A stretch of 11,283 nucleotides of DNA, taken from contig CADBQF010000282.1 of assembly GCA_902796705.1 (NCBI GenBank), forward strand, positions 1-11,283, read 5' to 3'. The position numbers were made by a program, and so were the translations under genes. This document shows positions 2-9,364 of this stretch, piece by piece (position 1 is the first letter of the stretch; each line of letters starts with the position of its first letter). Below the pieces are notes generated by a model that was not told the DNA's origin, ran no database searches, and saw nothing but the letters and a program-made list of their open reading frames with translations. The DNA is from Ruminococcus flavefaciens (lineage in GTDB: Bacteria > Bacillota > Clostridia > Oscillospirales > Ruminococcaceae).

Positions 2-3000
2 AATGCAGCCGGAACTGTCAATGCTGTCCAGGTAAAGGCATCAGGCAGCAAGACAAATGAAGATCCTTCAGCTTCTACACAGACTACGACTTCGAGTGAT
101 ACTACTACAACTACTACGACGACTACTACGACTGCACCTGTATCCAAAGTTGCTCAAGTACAGTTTCAGGTGAATTATGATAAAAAAACAGCAGGAACTA
201 AAGATGCTGATTTCAATAGCAAAGAATATAAAAATAATTGTCTGCACTTTTACTACAACACCTTATCAGAGGAAGAAATCGATGAGGTGCGTGAGATATT
301 GCTTGATAATTTATACATTTACAGGGAGAACGCATCTGATATAACATCAGATAATTTCGATCCTTACGAGATCCAAAAAGATCCTGTGACAGGCAAGACT
401 GAATGGAAATATAAAGGCGAGATTCCCGGATTGTATCATTTCTATGTAAAAGATACGTTATCTGGAAAAACTATCTATGGAAATGAAAGATATGAAATCT
501 CCCTCGACAATGGAATAAAAGTGGAGTTTTCGGTCAATACCGACAATTATCAGATACAGGATAAATCGGGTAAAGGCGTTGACCAGAAAGCTTTTAATGA
601 AGCTACCGACATCAGATACGAAAGCGGATCTATGGTGTCTTCAATAATCAGCTATGCACGAGGCAATGCCTACGTAAAAGACAATGTAGTGATAACACTC
701 AGAGCCGAGACAAATTCATGGGATAACGTTGATGAAGTTACATTTTTCCTGCTCAACGGAGAAAACAAGGGTGAACTGAAAGATGCCGGAAAAGTGATCG
801 CTTCAAAGACCGTGAATAGTGAAGGCGGATACGACAATAAGAAAAAGTATTCGGCAGAATTTACTCTCAGTGCAGAGCAGTATGAGACTATCAAGTATGA
901 TCTCTATAAAACTGCTGCTGCAGATCATGCTACGCCTAACGGCTCAGAACCTGTAATTGGGCGGTTTAATGGTTCTGGGATTCCTGTTATTATCGACAAA
1001 AAGGGACCTACAGTAAATGTAAAATCTGATCAAAAAAGTGCTACAGTGGAGTTGTCTGAAAAAATCAATAATGAAGGCAAGGAATACGACGGTATAGGTA
1101 TCGATGAAAAATCCTTAAAGATATCAATAAAGCTCGTTGATGCTGATAATGAGAGCAAAAGTGTTCAAACTGAAAAACTCAGCATTAATGATCTGGGCGA
1201 TCTTTCACGAACCCCTACTGGTGAGAAGAAAAATGGCGTATATACAACATACAACTTTATTGTAAGTCATGAAAAGTGGCTGAACCAGCCGGTAAGCGAA
1301 ACCGACACAAGAAGTCTGCTCAATTCTCTTCAGCAAGAACTCGGAAACACTAAGAATTACAAAATGTATCTCTGCATCGAAGGACAAGACAAATACGGTA
1401 ATCCGTGCTGTTATGATGAGAACAGAACAGATGTTAAAGTCGGTCCTGACGGCGATATCGAGTTTCCGATAATAAACCCGGATACCGGCGGCGTTGTTTT
1501 TGATAATACCAAGCCTTCACTGGATACGGGATCGGCAAAGCTTTATTATGAAGTGTATACTCCTGAAGTAAAAGATGATGAAGGCAATGTAACGACCGCT
1601 GCAAAACATGACTGGAAATATACGAATACTGTCTACTCATTTGATGACAACTATGACTATATCGACAAGGATAATGCTTTGTATTTCGATACCAGTCCAT
1701 ATACTTTTGACAGCAAGTCAGAAACACAGGTAAAGATCTATTTTACTGCCAATGCAAAAAGAGCTTATATCTGTCCTGCTGATAATGTGACTGAGGGAGC
1801 TGGCACCTTCTTAGACTATGATGATCTGGGAGATGAAAAAAAGAAATTCTGTATCAAGCTGAAAAAAGATCAGAACCTTGCAAATGTAAAGATACTTCTT
1901 TGTACTGATAATCCAAGTGAGAGCAGAACAAAGGTATTCACTATAGGTGAACTGTTCAAAGGCCAGTATAAAAACCCTAAAAATATTGATTTAGGCATAA
2001 CACAGCCGGCTGATCCGTTAGACATCAACGGATTCTATACAGATTCGACAGCTCCTGAGGTAGAGGCTTCTGTCACCGATGAACAGGAGTTCAACATTGA
2101 AAAACTCAAAAACAATGATGCCTATATTGACTTCAGGATAACTGAGGAAGGAACAGGCGTCGATGAGGATACGGTCGAGCTAAGCATAACAGACGCTGAT
2201 TCAACGGAAGAAGATCCGAAAACGCTCTACGATCAGAAAGTTCTTTATTACGACTTCATGGAGGTAAACGGATATAACTGCATAAGGGTATATTTAGGTT
2301 CTCTCAAAACTGAAGATAATGCACTGATCAAGAACGGTCATTACAATATCAAATTCAAGATCAGTGATAAAGCCGGATTAGCGAGCAAAGAAGCATCAGC
2401 ATCTTTCAAGATCGATTATATCGCTCCTACAATTAAAACTTCGGTCATTGATCCTGTGGAGAACAGGGAACACAATGTGAATACCGGCGAGGACACCGAT
2501 AAAAAGGTCTGGTATCGCTGGGAGGAACTTTTCGGAGGAATAGATGATGAGATGACAAAAGTTTCTCTTACATCAAATGAGGATCTTTTAAGCGTTTCAT
2601 CTGTGATCGAAGGTTTCAATGAAAACGGTGATCGGGTAGGCAACGCCGAAGCGTATGAAACCAAGATCGGAGATTCCGGCAGAACAGCACTTATCGACCT
2701 TTCGGCAGGAGCAATAAACAAGAATGAAGCTCAGAGGTATGAGTATACAGTAACGGCCTGCGATAATTCAAAAAACCCGTCAGAGGCTAAGTATACATTC
2801 TATGCTGACAGATATGCCCCTGTTATCAACAGCATTGAAGCTTCGGCCGGTGATGCACTGAGCGGCCCGATCTTAACAAGAGTCACAAAATTCGGCGTAT
2901 TCTCAAAAGATACGGTCAAACTGGTAATCAACGCTACCGATGAAAACGACAGCGGAGTCGCAGACGTAGAGGTAGAATATACCGGTGCAGACGGAAAAAC

Positions 3001-6000
3001 TGTTAAACAGTCATTGGAAAAGGAGAACAATGATCCTTCTTCTGATAATTATGTATTAACGCTTAAACAGGGTGAGTTCAGCAAGAGCGATCTCATTTTC
3101 AGAGTCTACGACAACAGCGGACGTGTAACAGAGTACAAAGCTGAAAAGAGTGCTGACGGCACGGGATATGTTTTTCAGCAGGCCCAGTATACGTGGCTCA
3201 ATAAAGACGGTAATGTCGAACGCACATCTGTTGATACACCTTCTGTATTTAACAGCGATCAGATCCAGACAGTAAATATCAAACAGTCTACGGCTGTTGA
3301 TGAACAGAACTATCTTACCATAATCGAGCAGGAGAAACCAACCGGAAGTATCGTATTCAGCGGCTTCCCTGAAAAAGAACCGTCATGGGAGTCCAAGGGC
3401 AACGGAACTACATGGTATAAGAAATACCCGGAGATGACCATTGAATTCGGGGATCATGCAGGTACAAATACCGATACAGGAGTGTCACTGGATTCTGGTC
3501 TCGATAATTTCAAGGTATATCTTAGTATTAACGGAGGCAAAGAGGAAGATATTACACAAACTGTAATAGATAGATCTTCGATCTTTGAGTACAGATCTGA
3601 TTTTGACAACAGATTAGATACAAATGAACGGATCGGCTCCATTGACAACAAAAAGCACGTCATAAAAGTTGACATGGAAAAAGTCATGGATGGAAAAGAT
3701 CAGGTTGACGGCAAGTATAGTGTAAGGATAGAACTGTCCGACAATGCCGGAAATGTTAATAATGAGATAAATTCATTCTTCGAGATCGACCAGACTTCTC
3801 CTCAGATCAGTGAGATCAGCCTTCAGGAGGTCGTAAATAATCTAAAAGATAAAAATGGTATCCAGAGAACTCCTTATGGCTTCCTGTTCATAAATCCTAC
3901 AATTGCAGTTGTCAAAGTGAACGACGTATGGGGTACAAATGCCGGCGGAACCAGCGGACTTAATAAGATCGGTTATTGTCTGGTCGAATTCAACGAATCA
4001 AATATGCCGGTAAACGCTGATGCCTGGGATAGTCAGAAAAACCAGATAAATGAAGAATTTATAAGAAATAACTATCAAACGGCAGAAATAAACGGCGATA
4101 CAGCCATGGTTGCTATCCCCGGCGGATTCAGGGGACAGATATGTGCTTTCCCGATCGATAATGTTCTTAATGAGGGAATGCTGAAAACTCCCGACTCTAT
4201 TGCTATCGACACCCCTGAAAAGCACAGAGAGGACAACGGCGGAGTCCATATCGACGTATCGTATCCTTCGACGAATCTGAAGGAGGGAAGCAACGATCTC
4301 TTCCCGACGGCAGTAAGCTACAGGGTAAGAATGATCGATAACATCTCCGGTATCAGGTCGGTCAAGTGCGATGTCAAGAGCGAAAAAGGTCTCTATTCCG
4401 GATATCAGGATTCGTTTGAGATAAGCTATGAAGTTCCCCCGACAGTCGGCAGTCAGATCGGCAACGGCTGGACAGTAGCAAAAATGGATAACAACCTTGT
4501 TACCGAGATATACAAGGACTACAATTTCAGCCAGGACGACAACGGCATCGAGATATCGTATGAGATGCGTGACTGGGCAGGAAACGAGCCTGACAAGAGG
4601 GGCTTCAAGTTCACAGTTGACCAGACAGCACCTATAATAAACGTATCGTTCCAGCCTTCCGGTTCACAGTATTACAAGACCGAGAGGACTGCAACAGTCA
4701 CCGTAACAGAGCGTAACTTCAACGCTCAGCTCATAGGCACAGTCATTGCAAATACTCTTCCGGGCGGAAACGTTCCTGCAATAGGCGGCTGGAAGGATAT
4801 CTCCAAGACAGAGCATCAGGCTACGATCACCTTCAAGGAAGGCGACTATACATTCGACATCAACGGAAAGGATATGGCAGGTCACAGTGCAATAGTGAAC
4901 GGCCTTGCTGCAACTGACAAGTCGTTCAGCATCGATATGACCGATCCTGTCATCACCGACAACAATATCTTCAAGGGACTCTCGAACGGAAACGACAACA
5001 GCTTCCAGGAGCCGCAGACTATCAGCTTCACTGTCAAGGAGCATAACTTCGATCCTGACAGCGTAGTCGTAAAGGTATACGGCGGCGAGCCGGGAACTGA
5101 CCATACAACTGGAACTCTCACTGATGTTACTTCAAAGGTCATCTCAGGCGGTCTTAAATGGACTGATTCGGGTGATTCTCATACAGCAACTATCACAGTC
5201 AGCGATGACGGAGTTTACCGCATCGAGATATCAGGCAAGGATAAGTCCGGCAGAGATATCAAGAAGCAGGAATCACCTGTATTCGAGATAGATAAGGTCG
5301 CTCCCGTGCTTGACAAGTCAAGTCCCGATAATAAGTCAACTATCATCTACGACAAGACTTCAAAGGCAGAAAAGCCCGACAACATCGTGTTCAGTGATGA
5401 TAATATCGACAGAGTAGAGTACACAGTCACAGCCTATACTCTCAAAAAGGATAAAGACGGCGTTCTCAATGTAGAACCCGAAACAAAGAAGTATTCCGTC
5501 AACGTTGCCGATGCTAAGAAGGCAAAGAACTACAGCGACGGAAAAATAGGTATCTCGATCAGCGATGACGAATTCAAGACCGACGGTATCTATGAGATAA
5601 AGTCAAAGGCTTATGACGTTGCAGGCAATGTCAGCGATGAAGCCGTACATACTTTCGTCGTACAGAAGAAGAGCGACTTCCTTGTATATATCCCCGGAAG
5701 CAACGAGGAAACAGGCGAAGGTCTCTACAAGTTCGACCGTAAGGGAATACAGGCAGAAAAGTTCGATGAGATCGAGATGATCGCTTTCATTCCGCAGGAT
5801 AAAGAATTCGGCCTGCTTATAGGCGGTACAGAAGTCTCAGATGATTACATCTCAGAAGTAGATGAAAAAGATGCTCCTGTTATCAACGGTATAAAGAGAC
5901 TCCATATCAAGCTTGATCCGAGCTATTTCAGCACTGTTTACAACGACGATTCTCTCGACGTTGACCTTGCTCTCAATGCAGTCGCAAAGAAGGGCAGCAG

Positions 6001-6439
6001 CTCACAGGAGATCACGATCGGTCATATCTACATCGATAACGTTAAACCGACAGGAAGCTTCGACAGCGAACTCCTCGACATGGGCTTCTTCGGCGGATAT
6101 TACGGCAGGAAGTCAATGAAGATCAAGATAAACGGCGTATCGCCTGATATCGATATCGAACAGTGTACTATCGAACTCAACGGCAAGGCTATCTCACCCA
6201 AGAAGCTCCAGTACAATGAAGACGAAAATGCTATCTATTTCACCCTCCCGGAGGGATTCAACGAAATAAGAGCTACTCTCGTTGATAAGGCAGGAAACTC
6301 CAACCCGCTCCCGATCGTAAAGAACGTCTACGTCGGAAACTTCGTAAAGAGATTCTGGTACCTCTTCCTCGGAGGCGGTCTCATCGTGGCTGGTATCCCC
6401 ACATTCCTTATCCTCAAAAAACGCAGAGAAAATAACTGA
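2..6439 (+). CDS. Giant Ig-like multidomain cell-surface protein, 5' partial
   Basis: The reading frame is open from base 2, so the gene begins upstream of the window; the GTG at 170 is only an internal valine codon. The visible part is 2145 residues. It starts with a short segment, then a Thr/Ser-rich linker (about 79-139), then a long series of beta-rich modules. Module boundaries carry a motif of the form F-x-I-D-x-x-x-P, seen with variations at about 992, 1499, 2036, 2405, 2798, 3779, 4610, 4925, 5282 and 6026, as in bacterial Ig-like proteins of Clostridia. The C-terminus has one hydrophobic segment (6353-6415) followed by KKRRENN, so the protein is predicted to be extracellular and held by a C-terminal membrane helix. 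I see no LPXTG sortase signal and no dockerin. Adhesion or cell-surface scaffolding is likely, but the ligand is unknown. The last third uses different codons from the first two thirds. Confidence is high for the gene and moderate for its role. Confidence 0.9.
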   Translation, partial: NAAGTVNAVQVKASGSKTNEDPSASTQTTTSSDTTTTTTTTTTTAPVSKVAQVQFQVNYDKKTAGTKDADFNSKEYKNNCLHFYYNTLSEEEIDEVREILLDNLYIYRENASDITSDNFDPYEIQKDPVTGKTEWKYKGEIPGLYHFYVKDTLSGKTIYGNERYEISLDNGIKVEFSVNTDNYQIQDKSGKGVDQKAFNEATDIRYESGSMVSSIISYARGNAYVKDNVVITLRAETNSWDNVDEVTFFLLNGENKGELKDAGKVIASKTVNSEGGYDNKKKYSAEFTLSAEQYETIKYDLYKTAAADHATPNGSEPVIGRFNGSGIPVIIDKKGPTVNVKSDQKSATVELSEKINNEGKEYDGIGIDEKSLKISIKLVDADNESKSVQTEKLSINDLGDLSRTPTGEKKNGVYTTYNFIVSHEKWLNQPVSETDTRSLLNSLQQELGNTKNYKMYLCIEGQDKYGNPCCYDENRTDVKVGPDGDIEFPIINPDTGGVVFDNTKPSLDTGSAKLYYEVYTPEVKDDEGNVTTAAKHDWKYTNTVYSFDDNYDYIDKDNALYFDTSPYTFDSKSETQVKIYFTANAKRAYICPADNVTEGAGTFLDYDDLGDEKKKFCIKLKKDQNLANVKILLCTDNPSESRTKVFTIGELFKGQYKNPKNIDLGITQPADPLDINGFYTDSTAPEVEASVTDEQEFNIEKLKNNDAYIDFRITEEGTGVDEDTVELSITDADSTEEDPKTLYDQKVLYYDFMEVNGYNCIRVYLGSLKTEDNALIKNGHYNIKFKISDKAGLASKEASASFKIDYIAPTIKTSVIDPVENREHNVNTGEDTDKKVWYRWEELFGGIDDEMTKVSLTSNEDLLSVSSVIEGFNENGDRVGNAEAYETKIGDSGRTALIDLSAGAINKNEAQRYEYTVTACDNSKNPSEAKYTFYADRYAPVINSIEASAGDALSGPILTRVTKFGVFSKDTVKLVINATDENDSGVADVEVEYTGADGKTVKQSLEKENNDPSSDNYVLTLKQGEFSKSDLIFRVYDNSGRVTEYKAEKSADGTGYVFQQAQYTWLNKDGNVERTSVDTPSVFNSDQIQTVNIKQSTAVDEQNYLTIIEQEKPTGSIVFSGFPEKEPSWESKGNGTTWYKKYPEMTIEFGDHAGTNTDTGVSLDSGLDNFKVYLSINGGKEEDITQTVIDRSSIFEYRSDFDNRLDTNERIGSIDNKKHVIKVDMEKVMDGKDQVDGKYSVRIELSDNAGNVNNEINSFFEIDQTSPQISEISLQEVVNNLKDKNGIQRTPYGFLFINPTIAVVKVNDVWGTNAGGTSGLNKIGYCLVEFNESNMPVNADAWDSQKNQINEEFIRNNYQTAEINGDTAMVAIPGGFRGQICAFPIDNVLNEGMLKTPDSIAIDTPEKHREDNGGVHIDVSYPSTNLKEGSNDLFPTAVSYRVRMIDNISGIRSVKCDVKSEKGLYSGYQDSFEISYEVPPTVGSQIGNGWTVAKMDNNLVTEIYKDYNFSQDDNGIEISYEMRDWAGNEPDKRGFKFTVDQTAPIINVSFQPSGSQYYKTERTATVTVTERNFNAQLIGTVIANTLPGGNVPAIGGWKDISKTEHQATITFKEGDYTFDINGKDMAGHSAIVNGLAATDKSFSIDMTDPVITDNNIFKGLSNGNDNSFQEPQTISFTVKEHNFDPDSVVVKVYGGEPGTDHTTGTLTDVTSKVISGGLKWTDSGDSHTATITVSDDGVYRIEISGKDKSGRDIKKQESPVFEIDKVAPVLDKSSPDNKSTIIYDKTSKAEKPDNIVFSDDNIDRVEYTVTAYTLKKDKDGVLNVEPETKKYSVNVADAKKAKNYSDGKIGISISDDEFKTDGIYEIKSKAYDVAGNVSDEAVHTFVVQKKSDFLVYIPGSNEETGEGLYKFDRKGIQAEKFDEIEMIAFIPQDKEFGLLIGGTEVSDDYISEVDEKDAPVINGIKRLHIKLDPSYFSTVYNDDSLDVDLALNAVAKKGSSSQEITIGHIYIDNVKPTGSFDSELLDMGFFGGYYGRKSMKIKINGVSPDIDIEQCTIELNGKAISPKKLQYNEDENAIYFTLPEGFNEIRATLVDKAGNSNPLPIVKNVYVGNFVKRFWYLFLGGGLIVAGIPTFLILKKRRENN
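79..139 (+). repeat. Thr-rich linker coded by an ACN triplet run
   Basis: Eleven consecutive threonine codons (101-133, ACT/ACA/ACG mixed) are preceded by a Ser/Thr-rich stretch. This is a typical flexible linker between modules of a secreted protein and a possible site of O-glycosylation (inference). The imperfect triplet repeat could change length by slippage without shifting the frame. Confidence 0.75.
4619..5305 (+). repeat. Tandem pair of homologous Ig-like modules in the surface protein
   Basis: Two adjacent modules share the same order of motifs. The first has TVTERNF, then HQATITF, then DINGKDMAGHS. The second has TVKEHNF, then HTATITV, then EISGKDKSGRD. Each begins after an ID/VD-x-x-x-P boundary (about 4619 and 4934), and the second ends at the next boundary, about 5291-5305. 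This is an internal protein-level duplication that has diverged at the DNA level. Confidence 0.7.
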
Positions 6440-6468: not shown

Positions 6469-6498
6469 TCCCCCGACTAATGTCGGGGGATTTTTCTT
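6469..6498 (+). terminator. Rho-independent terminator after the surface protein gene
   Basis: A 9-bp perfect stem (TCCCCCGAC at 6469-6477 pairing with GTCGGGGGA at 6482-6490) closes a TAAT loop and is followed at once by TTTTTCTT. It lies 30 nt after the TGA at 6437-6439 and insulates the surface gene from the methyltransferase promoter just downstream. Confidence 0.92.
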
Positions 6499-6505
6499 AA
6501 AAGGC

Positions 6506-6534
6506 TTGCATATTTTCTTGAAATGCGCTATTAT
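6506..6534 (+). promoter_or_regulatory. Probable methyltransferase promoter with an embedded GCGC site
   Basis: A -35-like TTGCAT (6506-6511, weak beyond TTG) and a -10-like TATTAT (6529-6534, five of six consensus bases) are separated by 17 bp. Transcription would start near 6541, leaving room for the AGGAGG at 6553-6558 before the ATG at 6568. GCGC occupies 6525-6528, directly against the -10 box. An alternative -35, TTGAAA at 6518-6523, would need a poor -10 near 6543 and would place the start inside the ribosome-binding site, so I prefer the first reading. In both readings the GCGC lies in the spacer. Confidence 0.6.
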
Positions 6535-6567
6535 ATATGTAGTACAAATTTTAGGAGGCAGCATCGA

Positions 6568-7548
6568 ATGATAGATGTTGAGAAAAAAAGCCTCAGCGGA
6601 ATGAGGTTCATTGACCTGTTTGCCGGATTGGGAGGATTCAGGATAGCACTGGAGTCTCTCGGGGCAGAGTGTGTTTATTCGAGCGAATGGGACAAGCAGG
6701 CTCAGCTCGTCTATGAGGCAAATTTTGGTGAAGTCCCGGACGGCGATATCACCCTGGTCGATGAAAAGACGATACCGGATCACGATATACTCTGTGCCGG
6801 ATTTCCGTGTCAGGCATTTTCGATAAGCGGAAAACAGCGAGGTTTCAATGACAGCCGTGGCACTCTCTTTTTTGACGTGGCACGCATAGTCAGGGAGAAA
6901 AAGCCGAAAGTCGTATTCATGGAAAACGTAAAGAATTTCGCTTCACATAATGAGGGAAGAACTCTCGCTGTCGTGAAAGGTACTATGGAAGAACTCGGAT
7001 ACGATTTCAACTATAAAGTCCTGAATGCGGTCGATTACGGTGTCCCTCAGAAACGAGAGAGGATATACATGGTATGCTTCCGGCAAGACCTGTCTGTCAG
7101 CGGATTCAGATATCCCGAGCCTTTTGCACTTACCCGGCACGTTGAAGATGTTCTGCTTGACGATGAGGATATGGTGAGCAGTCTCTACGTGAACAGGCCG
7201 GATACCTATTTTAATGACAAAAAAGACGATACCTACAGCGATACATCTATCAGGCTCGGTATCGTCAATAAAGGCGGTCAGGGTGAACGCATCTACAGTA
7301 CGAAAGGCATAGCGATAACTCTGTCGGCATACGGCGGAGGAGTATTCGCCAAGACAGGAGGATATCTCATAAACGGAAAGACCCGAAAACTTCATCCCCG
7401 TGAGTGTGCGAGGATAATGGGATATCCGGATTCATACAAGATCAGCAAAAGCATGAGCCAGGCATACAAACAATTCGGAAATTCCGTAGTTATCGATGTT
7501 TTGCAGCTCATTGCAGAGGAAATAGGAAGATCATTGGGAGGTAACTGA
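6568..7548 (+). CDS. HhaI-like DNA (cytosine-5) methyltransferase, predicted GCGC specificity
   Basis: This 326-residue enzyme transfers a methyl group from S-adenosylmethionine to carbon 5 of cytosine. The start is the ATG at 6568, nine bases after AGGAGG (6553-6558); the in-frame ATG at 6523 lies inside the promoter. Visible motifs are I (FIDLFAGLGG, residues 14-23), IV with catalytic Cys81 (FPCQAFS), VI with Glu119 (MENV), VIII (QKRERIY, Arg163 and Arg165), IX (RKLHPRECARIMGYP, 273-287) and X (QFGNSVV, 302-308). From memory, M.HhaI (327 residues) carries Cys81, Glu119, Arg163 and Arg165 at the same numbers. The target-recognition segment KGGQGERIYST...TLSAYGGG is nearly identical to that of M.HhaI, with the base-contacting Gln, Arg, Thr and Tyr present here as Gln238, Arg241, Thr251 and Tyr255. 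GCGC specificity is therefore a strong prediction. The gene is first in an operon with the 97-residue gene and protects the host from the convergent endonuclease. Confidence 0.95.
   Translation: MIDVEKKSLSGMRFIDLFAGLGGFRIALESLGAECVYSSEWDKQAQLVYEANFGEVPDGDITLVDEKTIPDHDILCAGFPCQAFSISGKQRGFNDSRGTLFFDVARIVREKKPKVVFMENVKNFASHNEGRTLAVVKGTMEELGYDFNYKVLNAVDYGVPQKRERIYMVCFRQDLSVSGFRYPEPFALTRHVEDVLLDDEDMVSSLYVNRPDTYFNDKKDDTYSDTSIRLGIVNKGGQGERIYSTKGIAITLSAYGGGVFAKTGGYLINGKTRKLHPRECARIMGYPDSYKISKSMSQAYKQFGNSVVIDVLQLIAEEIGRSLGGN
7536..7541 (+). promoter_or_regulatory. Ribosome-binding site of the 97-residue gene inside the methyltransferase end
   Basis: GGGAGG lies within the last codons of the methyltransferase gene, eight bases before the ATG at 7550. 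The methyltransferase stop (7546-7548) is one base from that ATG, so translation of the two genes is probably coupled. Confidence 0.75.
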
Positions 7549-7549
7549 T

Positions 7550-7843
7550 ATGAAAGAAGCAGAGTTCAGAGAATGGCTGAAAGAGAGCGGAAAAAAGAGC
7601 AAGATAATCAGCGATACGCTTTCAAGGCTCAGAAGAGTCGAAAGAGAGATCGGTGACTGTGATATCGATGCTCATTATGAAAAGGACAAGTGCGAATATC
7701 TCATGTCGCTCTTCCTTAAAATGGGAAAAAACGACGAGATGAAGAAATATCCGGACGTTTCCCTGCCTATCGGTAAATACTATATGGGAACATATCGTCT
7801 TGCCCTGAAACAGTACGTAGCATTCAGGGATTCGGAAGAGTGA
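7550..7843 (+). CDS. Small helical protein of unknown function, cotranslated with the methyltransferase
   Basis: This is a 97-residue, highly charged protein that I cannot assign to a characterised family. The N-terminal half (F-x-x-W-L-x-x-x-G, then SDTLSRLRRVE around residues 23-33) looks like the helical, core-binding or SAM-like modules that I associate with the N-terminus of some restriction enzymes and integrases. The C-terminal half ends with GTYRLALKQYVAFRD, again a helix pair of that type. There is no helix-turn-helix C-protein signature, no zinc motif and no membrane segment. It sits one base after the methyltransferase stop with its own GGGAGG, so it is almost certainly expressed with it. 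It might help recognise DNA, modulate the convergent endonuclease or regulate the locus; all three are inference. It is basic enough to bind DNA. The call as a real gene is firm, the role is not. Confidence 0.8.
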   Translation: MKEAEFREWLKESGKKSKIISDTLSRLRRVEREIGDCDIDAHYEKDKCEYLMSLFLKMGKNDEMKKYPDVSLPIGKYYMGTYRLALKQYVAFRDSEE

Positions 7844-7912: not shown

Positions 7913-8710
7913 TTATTTCAGTTCTCTGACAAATTCGCTGAGATCGTTGGGATCCTGCGGTGCTTTGGCTTTGATAGAAAAAACAACGGTAGGATTCTTG
8001 AGATTTGAAAGCTTTCTTATTTCATAGTCTATGCCATTTATGTGAGAAAAACTGATCCTGAGATCTTTGTATTGGAATATGTTCCCGGACGGAGGTGCAG
8101 GCATGGCGGCAATGAGTCTCTTCCCTTCAATTCTGAAGCTTGCAGAAGGATAGAGCGTTGTGATATGATTTTTGAGTTCCTCTCTGAGACATATAGGAAG
8201 AGAACCTGAGCCGCTTCCTTTTTTGCGGTAGTTGGCTTCTATATTGAAGTAGTTCATGAATCTCCTCAATGGAAAGATAACGAAACTCTCGCCGTACTTC
8301 GTTATGAAAAATCTGACGTTTTTCTGGGCATAGTGACCGGTTATCCACTGCGAGCAGACATTGCTGTCAATGCCGATGTTCATATCCGCAGTACCGACTT
8401 TGCTGAATCTGTCGAAATCACGCTTCATGACTTCTGCGATAGCGTCTGTGAAGACGTTCCGGACGCTTTTGTTGTCATTGGAGAAATTGAATGTGCGGTT
8501 CGCTTCGTCCGGAAAAAGCACGAACTGTCCGGATTGAGCACCGGTGTCTTTCGCTTCTATGAAAAAAGCGGTCTGACCGTTTATAACAGCGGCGATGTCA
8601 GAGACAGTTGAGTCCATTCCGCCCATTCTCCGGAAGCTGACTTTATCGCTGCCGTAAGTATTATTCAGGTAATTGCAGGCATCTATTTCAAATGCTTCGC
8701 CTGGTATCAT
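7913..8710 (-). CDS. HhaI-like type II restriction endonuclease (PD-(D/E)XK fold), predicted to cut GCGC
   Basis: This 265-residue protein carries a PD-(D/E)XK active site. An N-terminal helix (GEAFEIDACNYLNNTYG, residues 4-20) is followed by DSTVSDI with Asp38, then FFIEAKDT with Glu52 and Lys54. GQFVLFP (61-67) follows. The YLN-x-TYG, DST-x-SDI, IEAK and GQFVL blocks match my recollection of R.HhaI, and the C-terminal KLSN...VVFSIKAK block also resembles it. R.HhaI cleaves GCGC, matching the methyltransferase next door. The ATG at 8710 has AGGAGG (8718-8723 on this strand) seven bases upstream. The gene faces the methyltransferase operon tail to tail and begins 15 nt after the DUF2225-type gene, with no obvious promoter in the gap. 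It therefore appears to be transcribed from the metabolic operon or from a promoter hidden in the upstream gene. The nuclease class is secure; HhaI membership is from memory and unaligned. Confidence 0.88.
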   Translation of the reverse strand: MIPGEAFEIDACNYLNNTYGSDKVSFRRMGGMDSTVSDIAAVINGQTAFFIEAKDTGAQSGQFVLFPDEANRTFNFSNDNKSVRNVFTDAIAEVMKRDFDRFSKVGTADMNIGIDSNVCSQWITGHYAQKNVRFFITKYGESFVIFPLRRFMNYFNIEANYRKKGSGSGSLPICLREELKNHITTLYPSASFRIEGKRLIAAMPAPPSGNIFQYKDLRISFSHINGIDYEIRKLSNLKNPTVVFSIKAKAPQDPNDLSEFVRELK

Positions 8711-8725: not shown

Positions 8726-9364
8726 TTATTCCTTGATATTTTTGGCATCATCGATAGTATAACAAGCAGTATCTCCTTCGGCGGCACGGTCGAGCTGGAA
8801 ACGCATAATACCGGCGAGCATGGCATTGCCGAAGCGGTGTTCACGGAGCTTTTCGGGAATTTCCCTGAAAAGGCCTGCACGCCTGTATACATCGAGGAGG
8901 ATAAGGACGAATTCCTCCGGATAGGCAGTCAGCTTTTCGGCAGCGGAGAGAGCTTTTCTGCGGCAGATGACGGAATTTACGTCGTCGTTGAGGTCATCGA
9001 ACACCCACGCAGCCGACAGGAACGAATGGAAAGCCTTTTCGTTTGCATTGAGGGCAAGCTCGATGAGACCACGCCTGTAGAAATCGGCGGCGAGTTTTTC
9101 GGAGAAGTTATTGCCGTCGCAGGTGCGGTAGGCATCGGAAGCGACGATATCCCTGTAGAGCTTCGAGCGTTTGTCGCCGTCGCTGCCGACGAAACCGCAC
9201 TGCGGGCAGACGGTTATCCACATATCCATAGTGCTTCGCATCATTTCGGGCGGACGCATATCGAGGTCGGGAACGCCGAACTGGTTCGTGCTGAGCAGAA
9301 CTTTATGATCGAATTTATGGCCGCAGCAGCGGCATTTTGTCTTTGCGGAGATGATCTGTGACAT
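8726..9364 (-). CDS. DUF2225-like zinc-binding protein with a helical repeat tail
   Basis: This 212-residue cytoplasmic protein has two Cys pairs near its N-terminus, CRCCG (Cys11 and Cys14) and CPQCGF (Cys53 and Cys56). They are separated by a DLDMRP segment that matches the pattern I know from DUF2225 proteins (Cys-x-x-Cys, D-x-D-x-R-P, then CP-x-CG-F/Y). These four Cys residues probably bind one zinc ion. The rest is alpha-helical and reads like TPR-type repeats (for example AADFYRRGLIELALNANEKAFHSFLSAAW). The molecular function of the family is not established. The ATG at 9364 is one base from the paaK stop (9366-9368), with GAGG (9374-9377) nine bases upstream, so the two are coupled. 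Its place between an aryl-acid metabolism operon and a restriction gene gives no clear functional clue. Confidence 0.85.
   Translation of the reverse strand: MSQIISAKTKCRCCGHKFDHKVLLSTNQFGVPDLDMRPPEMMRSTMDMWITVCPQCGFVGSDGDKRSKLYRDIVASDAYRTCDGNNFSEKLAADFYRRGLIELALNANEKAFHSFLSAAWVFDDLNDDVNSVICRRKALSAAEKLTAYPEEFVLILLDVYRRAGLFREIPEKLREHRFGNAMLAGIMRFQLDRAAEGDTACYTIDDAKNIKE

Follow-up and report, generated by a model that had tools for sequence, protein, structure and literature searches.

Promoters of methyltransferase genes that contain the target of their own product, and are weakened by methylation of that target, are established for several restriction–modification systems in the relevant passages of PMC6237814, PMC12707154, PMC3874152 and PMC5333194. 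Our literature search, with most subscription papers outside its scope, found no account of how systems of the HhaI type time the methyltransferase (M) before the endonuclease (R). M.HhaI is a textbook DNA methyltransferase. Here we describe an HhaI-type locus of Ruminococcus flavefaciens on contig CADBQF010000282.1 (hereafter referred to as the window, the whole stretch of DNA analysed, which is one entire contig of 11,283 bases from a draft genome of 2.27 Mb in 441 contigs). The locus consists of M, a small gene that directly follows it (S) and a convergent R. The core promoter of M contains the predicted cognate site of M, and a comparison with related loci suggests that this site is the remaining half of a palindromic operator conserved among many of them.

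A recount confirmed that the window holds a single GCGC, at 6525–6528, a motif belonging to neither strand in particular and with a matching site in relatives. As the preliminary description had reported, it lies between a −35-like hexamer, TTGCAT (6506–6511, forward strand; TTG stands at the matching place in most relatives), and a −10 hexamer, TATTAT (6529–6534, forward strand; TATAAT in eight relatives), 40 bp upstream of the M start codon at 6568. The hexamers are separated by 17 bp, and the GCGC directly abuts the −10 box; with the −10 hexamer set as −12 to −7, it spans positions −16 to −13, the part of the promoter that is read by sigma in extended −10 promoters. A consensus scan with a threshold of 9 matches in 12 did not list this promoter, which has 8 of 12 by eye; we accepted it despite the scan because relatives show a −10 box at the matching place, most of them with a TTG-type −35 hexamer. 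A ribosome-binding site, AGGAGG, is present at 6553–6558 on the forward strand.

Given exactly one GCGC in the window, the chance that it lands within the 17-bp spacer is 0.0012. Dinucleotide shuffles of the window contained 33.15 GCGC on average (s.d. 5.36), with at least one in each of 200 shuffles. We rejected local scarcity as the finding, since the rest of the genome sample is equally poor: 20 other contigs of the same genome (96,243 bp) hold 7 GCGC against 352 expected, one of them inside a tRNA-Ala gene, and the sample including the window (G000) holds 8 in 107,526 bp, or about one per 13 kb. At this rate, the probability of at least one GCGC in a stretch of the window's size is 0.57. 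As GCGC is scarce genome-wide, its position in the promoter is the real finding. The scarcity agrees with the GCGC specificity assigned to M and R by homology, but CGCG (3 observed, 346 expected) and CTAG (0 observed, 281 expected) are equally scarce in the same contigs. In samples of 20 to 108 kb from each of nine genomes, G000 included, the observed/expected ratio of GCGC was 0.02 in G000, 0.01 and 0.38 in two genomes with complete systems (G046 and G362, respectively), 0.09 in one with a solitary M (G053) and, in five congeners where M had no match at E 1e-90, 0.66, 0.82, 0.15, 0.42 and 0.35. The ratio for CTAG was at most 0.08 in all nine genomes, and that for CGCG at most 0.10 in six. Thus, GCGC scarcity tracks the HhaI-type system only roughly.

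To compare promoters, we gathered M relatives by whole-genome searches (1,998 genomes in all, counting repeats and the search with R) and from viral contigs, where the best 80 of 316 were used and a scan with other peptides placed the same eight close loci on top. Fifteen distinct loci, the window included, encode an M at least 73% identical to that of the window; L003, L007 and L008, all from G046, were counted as one locus, as were L006 and L017, whose sequences agree fully across 900 bp of the gene and the 200 bp before it. A 23-bp palindrome, ATTATAGCGC-NNN-GCGCTATAAT, occupies the M promoter in 8 of the 15 (L004, L010, L011, L013, L014, L016, L209 and L210). It holds two GCGC sites 7 bp apart, and its right arm contains the −10 box; the left arm is imperfect in two loci, beginning with TTTATA in L004 and ATTTAA in L010. 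Numbered relative to the first base of the −10 box, the eight are identical at −12 to −8 and at −4 to +5; variation falls in the 3-bp centre and in most of the flanking bases. These loci belong to several bacterial families and to viral contigs. When nine relatives are aligned on the −10 box, the place of the element in the window is 6512–6534 (forward strand), where the right half, GCGCTATTAT, with its one GCGC is kept and the left half has been lost. The preliminary description had therefore covered only the remaining half of the element, and had missed the palindrome and the small gene linked to it. The comparison that it proposed, asking whether a GCGC between −35 and −10 is conserved in related promoters, supports its idea of a regulatory role: a GCGC abuts the −10 box in nine of the 15 loci, window included, and in six it does not. 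The loss of the site in close relatives, which it had named as telling against its proposal, is thus seen in part: G046, of the same genus, keeps M, S and R and has TCGC in place of GCGC (TTCGCTATACT), and L005, L006/L017, L012, L015 and L211 have neither the element nor a GCGC at the matching place. In L015, GCGC occurs at −232 and −75, within phage DNA and not as part of such an element, and seven more distant M genes (L009, L018, L019, L020, L090, L212 and L213) show no GCGC in the 160–260 bp upstream.

The 18-base form of the element has four matches in a viral collection of 2.9 million contigs, all four directly upstream of M, and its 16-base form occurs in seven viral stretches, four upstream of M and three inside long open frames. 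The 14-base half form was discarded as a marker on its own, with 71 viral stretches of which five lie upstream of M and the remainder are background. A control palindrome with CGCG in place of GCGC matched two contigs that share one sequence, with no relative of M, S or R in the fetched DNA. Match counts alone thus say little, and the weight lies in the placement of every 18-base match at an M promoter. Seven loci were each checked for further copies, and in every one the best element stood alone, any other place showing at least 6 mismatches; no matching element was seen upstream of R in nine loci, and a promoter on the opposite strand of the palindrome was rejected for want, by eye, of a good −35 hexamer. 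A pattern check of the viral-contig loci gave matches in 9 of 93, each of which is one of these M loci or an overlapping fetch of one. Moreover, a search made with the element already defined brought four new M loci, of which L209 and L210 are exact matches to it; L211 and the distant L212 do not carry it. Together, the sequences make it very likely that the promoter element is under selection.

The element co-occurs with S, which follows M in nine loci (the window, L004, G046, L010, L013, L014, L016, L209 and L210). A GCGC abuts the −10 box in eight of these nine (seven with two sites and the window with one) and in none of the five close loci without S (L005, L006/L017, L012, L015 and L211; Fisher p 0.003); adding L009, L212 and L213 gives none of eight S-negative loci (p 0.0004). 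L011, whose contig ends within M, was excluded from this count. As a feature linked to R, the element was set aside (p 0.28, against 0.003 for S). Most of the weight of the S linkage rests on L211 and L209: L211 has M and R without S or the element, and inspection by eye places a GCGC-free TTGACA/TATAAT promoter well upstream; L209 has M, S and the element with only a fragment of R in the fetched 3,969 bp. A search of the viral contigs with S returned four loci, none of them new. On the M tree, the element needs at least five gains or losses, and 174 of 500 label shuffles needed as few, so no clustering beyond chance is seen on this poorly resolved tree.

On the basis of this analysis, we consider a negative-feedback switch that senses methylation, as in LlaDII, AhdI and CfrBI, to be the probable role of the M promoter (about 0.6); S may act in it as a co-regulator. 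In a naive cell with unmethylated DNA, the M–S promoter would be strong, and M, together with S, would be made first. M would then methylate the GCGC that adjoins the −10 box, as well as its partner in promoters with two sites, so that initiation would fall and M would settle at a low level; that methylation lowers initiation is proposed by analogy with CfrBI, LlaDII and AhdI. Since the element is symmetrical and tied to S, participation of S is suggested: S, perhaps as a dimer, may bind the element and assist or read the switch. More speculatively, falling M–S transcription might free the convergent R from opposing transcription. It is possible, if doubtful, that S represents a new class of controller. 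As a dimer, it would bind the palindrome, whose two half-sites are methylation targets of the system itself; it would in this way sense whether the M promoter is methylated and adjust the level of M and, by way of convergent transcription, that of R.

Several observations weigh against this feedback switch. Neither the −35 nor the −10 hexamer includes the conserved left arm, which plain sensing of methylation by RNA polymerase therefore does not explain. The window lacks that left half altogether, and G046 retains a full system with TCGC. Of the three close loci identified once the element was known, L211 lacks it; its M and R persist in the absence of S too, so the element is not needed for a working pair. 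L012 and L015, whose M is 97–98% identical to that of L013, lack it as well; they are weak negatives, because these viral contigs have other flanks, replaced with phage capture, and in L015 what looks by eye like the start of S follows M. Finally, shared ancestry inflates the locus counts, and only 2 of 14 inner branches of the M tree are well supported.

In another account, S would itself be the regulator: a dimer of it would occupy the TTATAGCGC half-sites and repress the M–S promoter, the GCGC being mainly part of the sequence read by S and its methylation either gating S or idle. We regard this as unlikely: S is present in G046 without a palindrome and in the window with only half of one, its DNA binding is putative, its fold match is at a level that the tool grades as weak, and the presence of the system's own target twice in the operator would be a coincidence unless methylation matters. 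Less probable still is that the window's site is a decaying relic without present function. The missing left half, and a G046 locus that keeps M, S and R without the GCGC, would fit such decay; however, a useless site would be expected to vanish from a genome where GCGC occurs about once in 13 kb, and the right half is intact. Least probable of all is that M itself binds the two promoter sites, which are its predicted targets and adjoin the −10 box, and blocks RNA polymerase apart from methylation, since M, whose alignment with M.HhaI begins at residue 1, lacks an additional N-terminal domain for DNA binding, unlike the SsoII type whose M.SsoII-like enzymes repress their own genes (in the part of PMC3874152 concerned), and the conserved left arm and the link to S would be left unexplained. 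The feedback switch, with S as a possible partner, thus remains our preferred interpretation.

M (6568–7548, forward strand) encodes a C5-cytosine methyltransferase of 326 residues, which scores 542 bits to M.HhaI, aligns with it along its length (residues 1–324) and matches PF00145. S (7550–7843, forward strand) encodes a small helical protein of 97 residues, and its frame starts one base past the M stop codon. Searches of S against Pfam and NCBIfam gave no match above the cut-off; among PDB sequences the best rows were proteasome subunits with E values of 0.0026 and above, which we set aside by judgement, and none of the 14 listed matches to viral structures reached E 0.001. Both a C-protein helix-turn-helix and the core-binding domain of tyrosine recombinases were considered for S, with a fold match at a level that the tool grades as weak; in the doubtful reading of S as a new class of controller, it would perhaps derive from an integrase core-binding domain rather than from a helix-turn-helix C protein. 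R (7913–8710, reverse strand; 265 residues) encodes an HhaI endonuclease homologue that aligns with 6uke over residues 6–249 (E 2.3e-33), and its SD and EAK residues align with those of the D...E-A-K active-site motif. In the window, as in the relatives with both S and R, this gene runs convergent to M and S; about 2.2 kb separates its start codon from the GCGC site. The 3′ ends of S and R overlap by 20 bp in L013, L014, L016 and L210 (four of the seven loci measured), and gaps of 24 bp (L010), 40 bp (L004) and 69 bp (window) separate them in the others.

Other features surround the locus and its relatives. Upstream of M, an open frame of at least 2,145 codons (2–6439) is open at the contig start and, by eye, finishes in a membrane anchor, resembling a large surface protein rich in repeats; a terminator-like hairpin (6469–6490, forward strand), between this gene and the M promoter, would end its transcription unit. 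On the strand of R, an unrelated frame (8726–9364; a weak DUF2225 match, below the cut-off) ends 15 bp before R begins, so that R may be read from a chromosomal transcription unit in the window. A second C5-methyltransferase gene stands just upstream of R, on the same strand, in L010 (4360–5331; PF00145), and such a gene was seen by eye or as a partial match in L004, L014 and L210. Vsr mismatch-endonuclease genes, which are expected where C5 methylation causes T–G mismatches, lie near the HhaI-type systems of L016 (3235–3642) and L013 (163–573). The viral M genes at L012:4001–5014 and L015:4001–5017 stand without relatives of S or R and without the promoter element; these solitary methylases are perhaps kept as anti-restriction. 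R.HhaI homologues occur in three further viral contigs (L097:4001–4786, L098:3980–4738 and L099:3923–4681), those of L097 and L098 matching 6uke at E 2.8e-46 and 3.6e-14, respectively, and L099 also carries gp32-like and RecA-like genes. The 7–9-kb stretches of all three contain no M relative and no GCGC; a phage R without a methylase may cut host or rival DNA. Searches for M relatives among phages (369 records) and plasmids (4,015 records) returned only records below 60% identity, and R had no match among the plasmids. E. coli genomes searched by DNA gave no match, and a scan of genome contigs with R yielded one locus, the G046 contig.

A conserved 23-bp element that carries the predicted target twice beside the −10 box offers a concrete, testable answer to the timing of M before R, and the small, unnamed gene that occurs together with it may encode a controller of a new type. 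In addition, nature provides variants with two sites (eight loci), one (the window) and none (G046), allowing a direct comparison of one-site and two-site behaviour. Among described systems, LlaDII of Lactococcus lactis (Christensen and Josephsen 2004) reportedly carries two LlaDII sites in its M promoter region. Its specificity and gene order are other than those found here, and the promoters are likened by published description; LlaDII is not known to have an S gene. The likeness is that the M promoter is regulated through methylation by its own product, with the M gene alone affected, according to the passage on LlaDII in PMC12707154. AhdI shares the convergent arrangement (as given in the corresponding part of PMC5333194); its C protein is co-transcribed with R, whereas here the small gene follows M and has no known family match. 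CfrBI, the parallel drawn by the preliminary description, likewise has a cognate site in its M promoter, where methylation blocks RNA polymerase (in the CfrBI passage of PMC12707154). That much of the parallel stands, but CfrBI is not the best one: its R and M promoters are divergent and overlapping and switch R directly, an arrangement found neither in the window nor in the relatives with S and R, where R is convergent. LlaDII and AhdI are the better fit, the effect there being confined to the M gene (PMC12707154, section 10). HhaI of Haemophilus haemolyticus resembles the locus in its proteins, both enzymes being clear homologues of the M and R described here.
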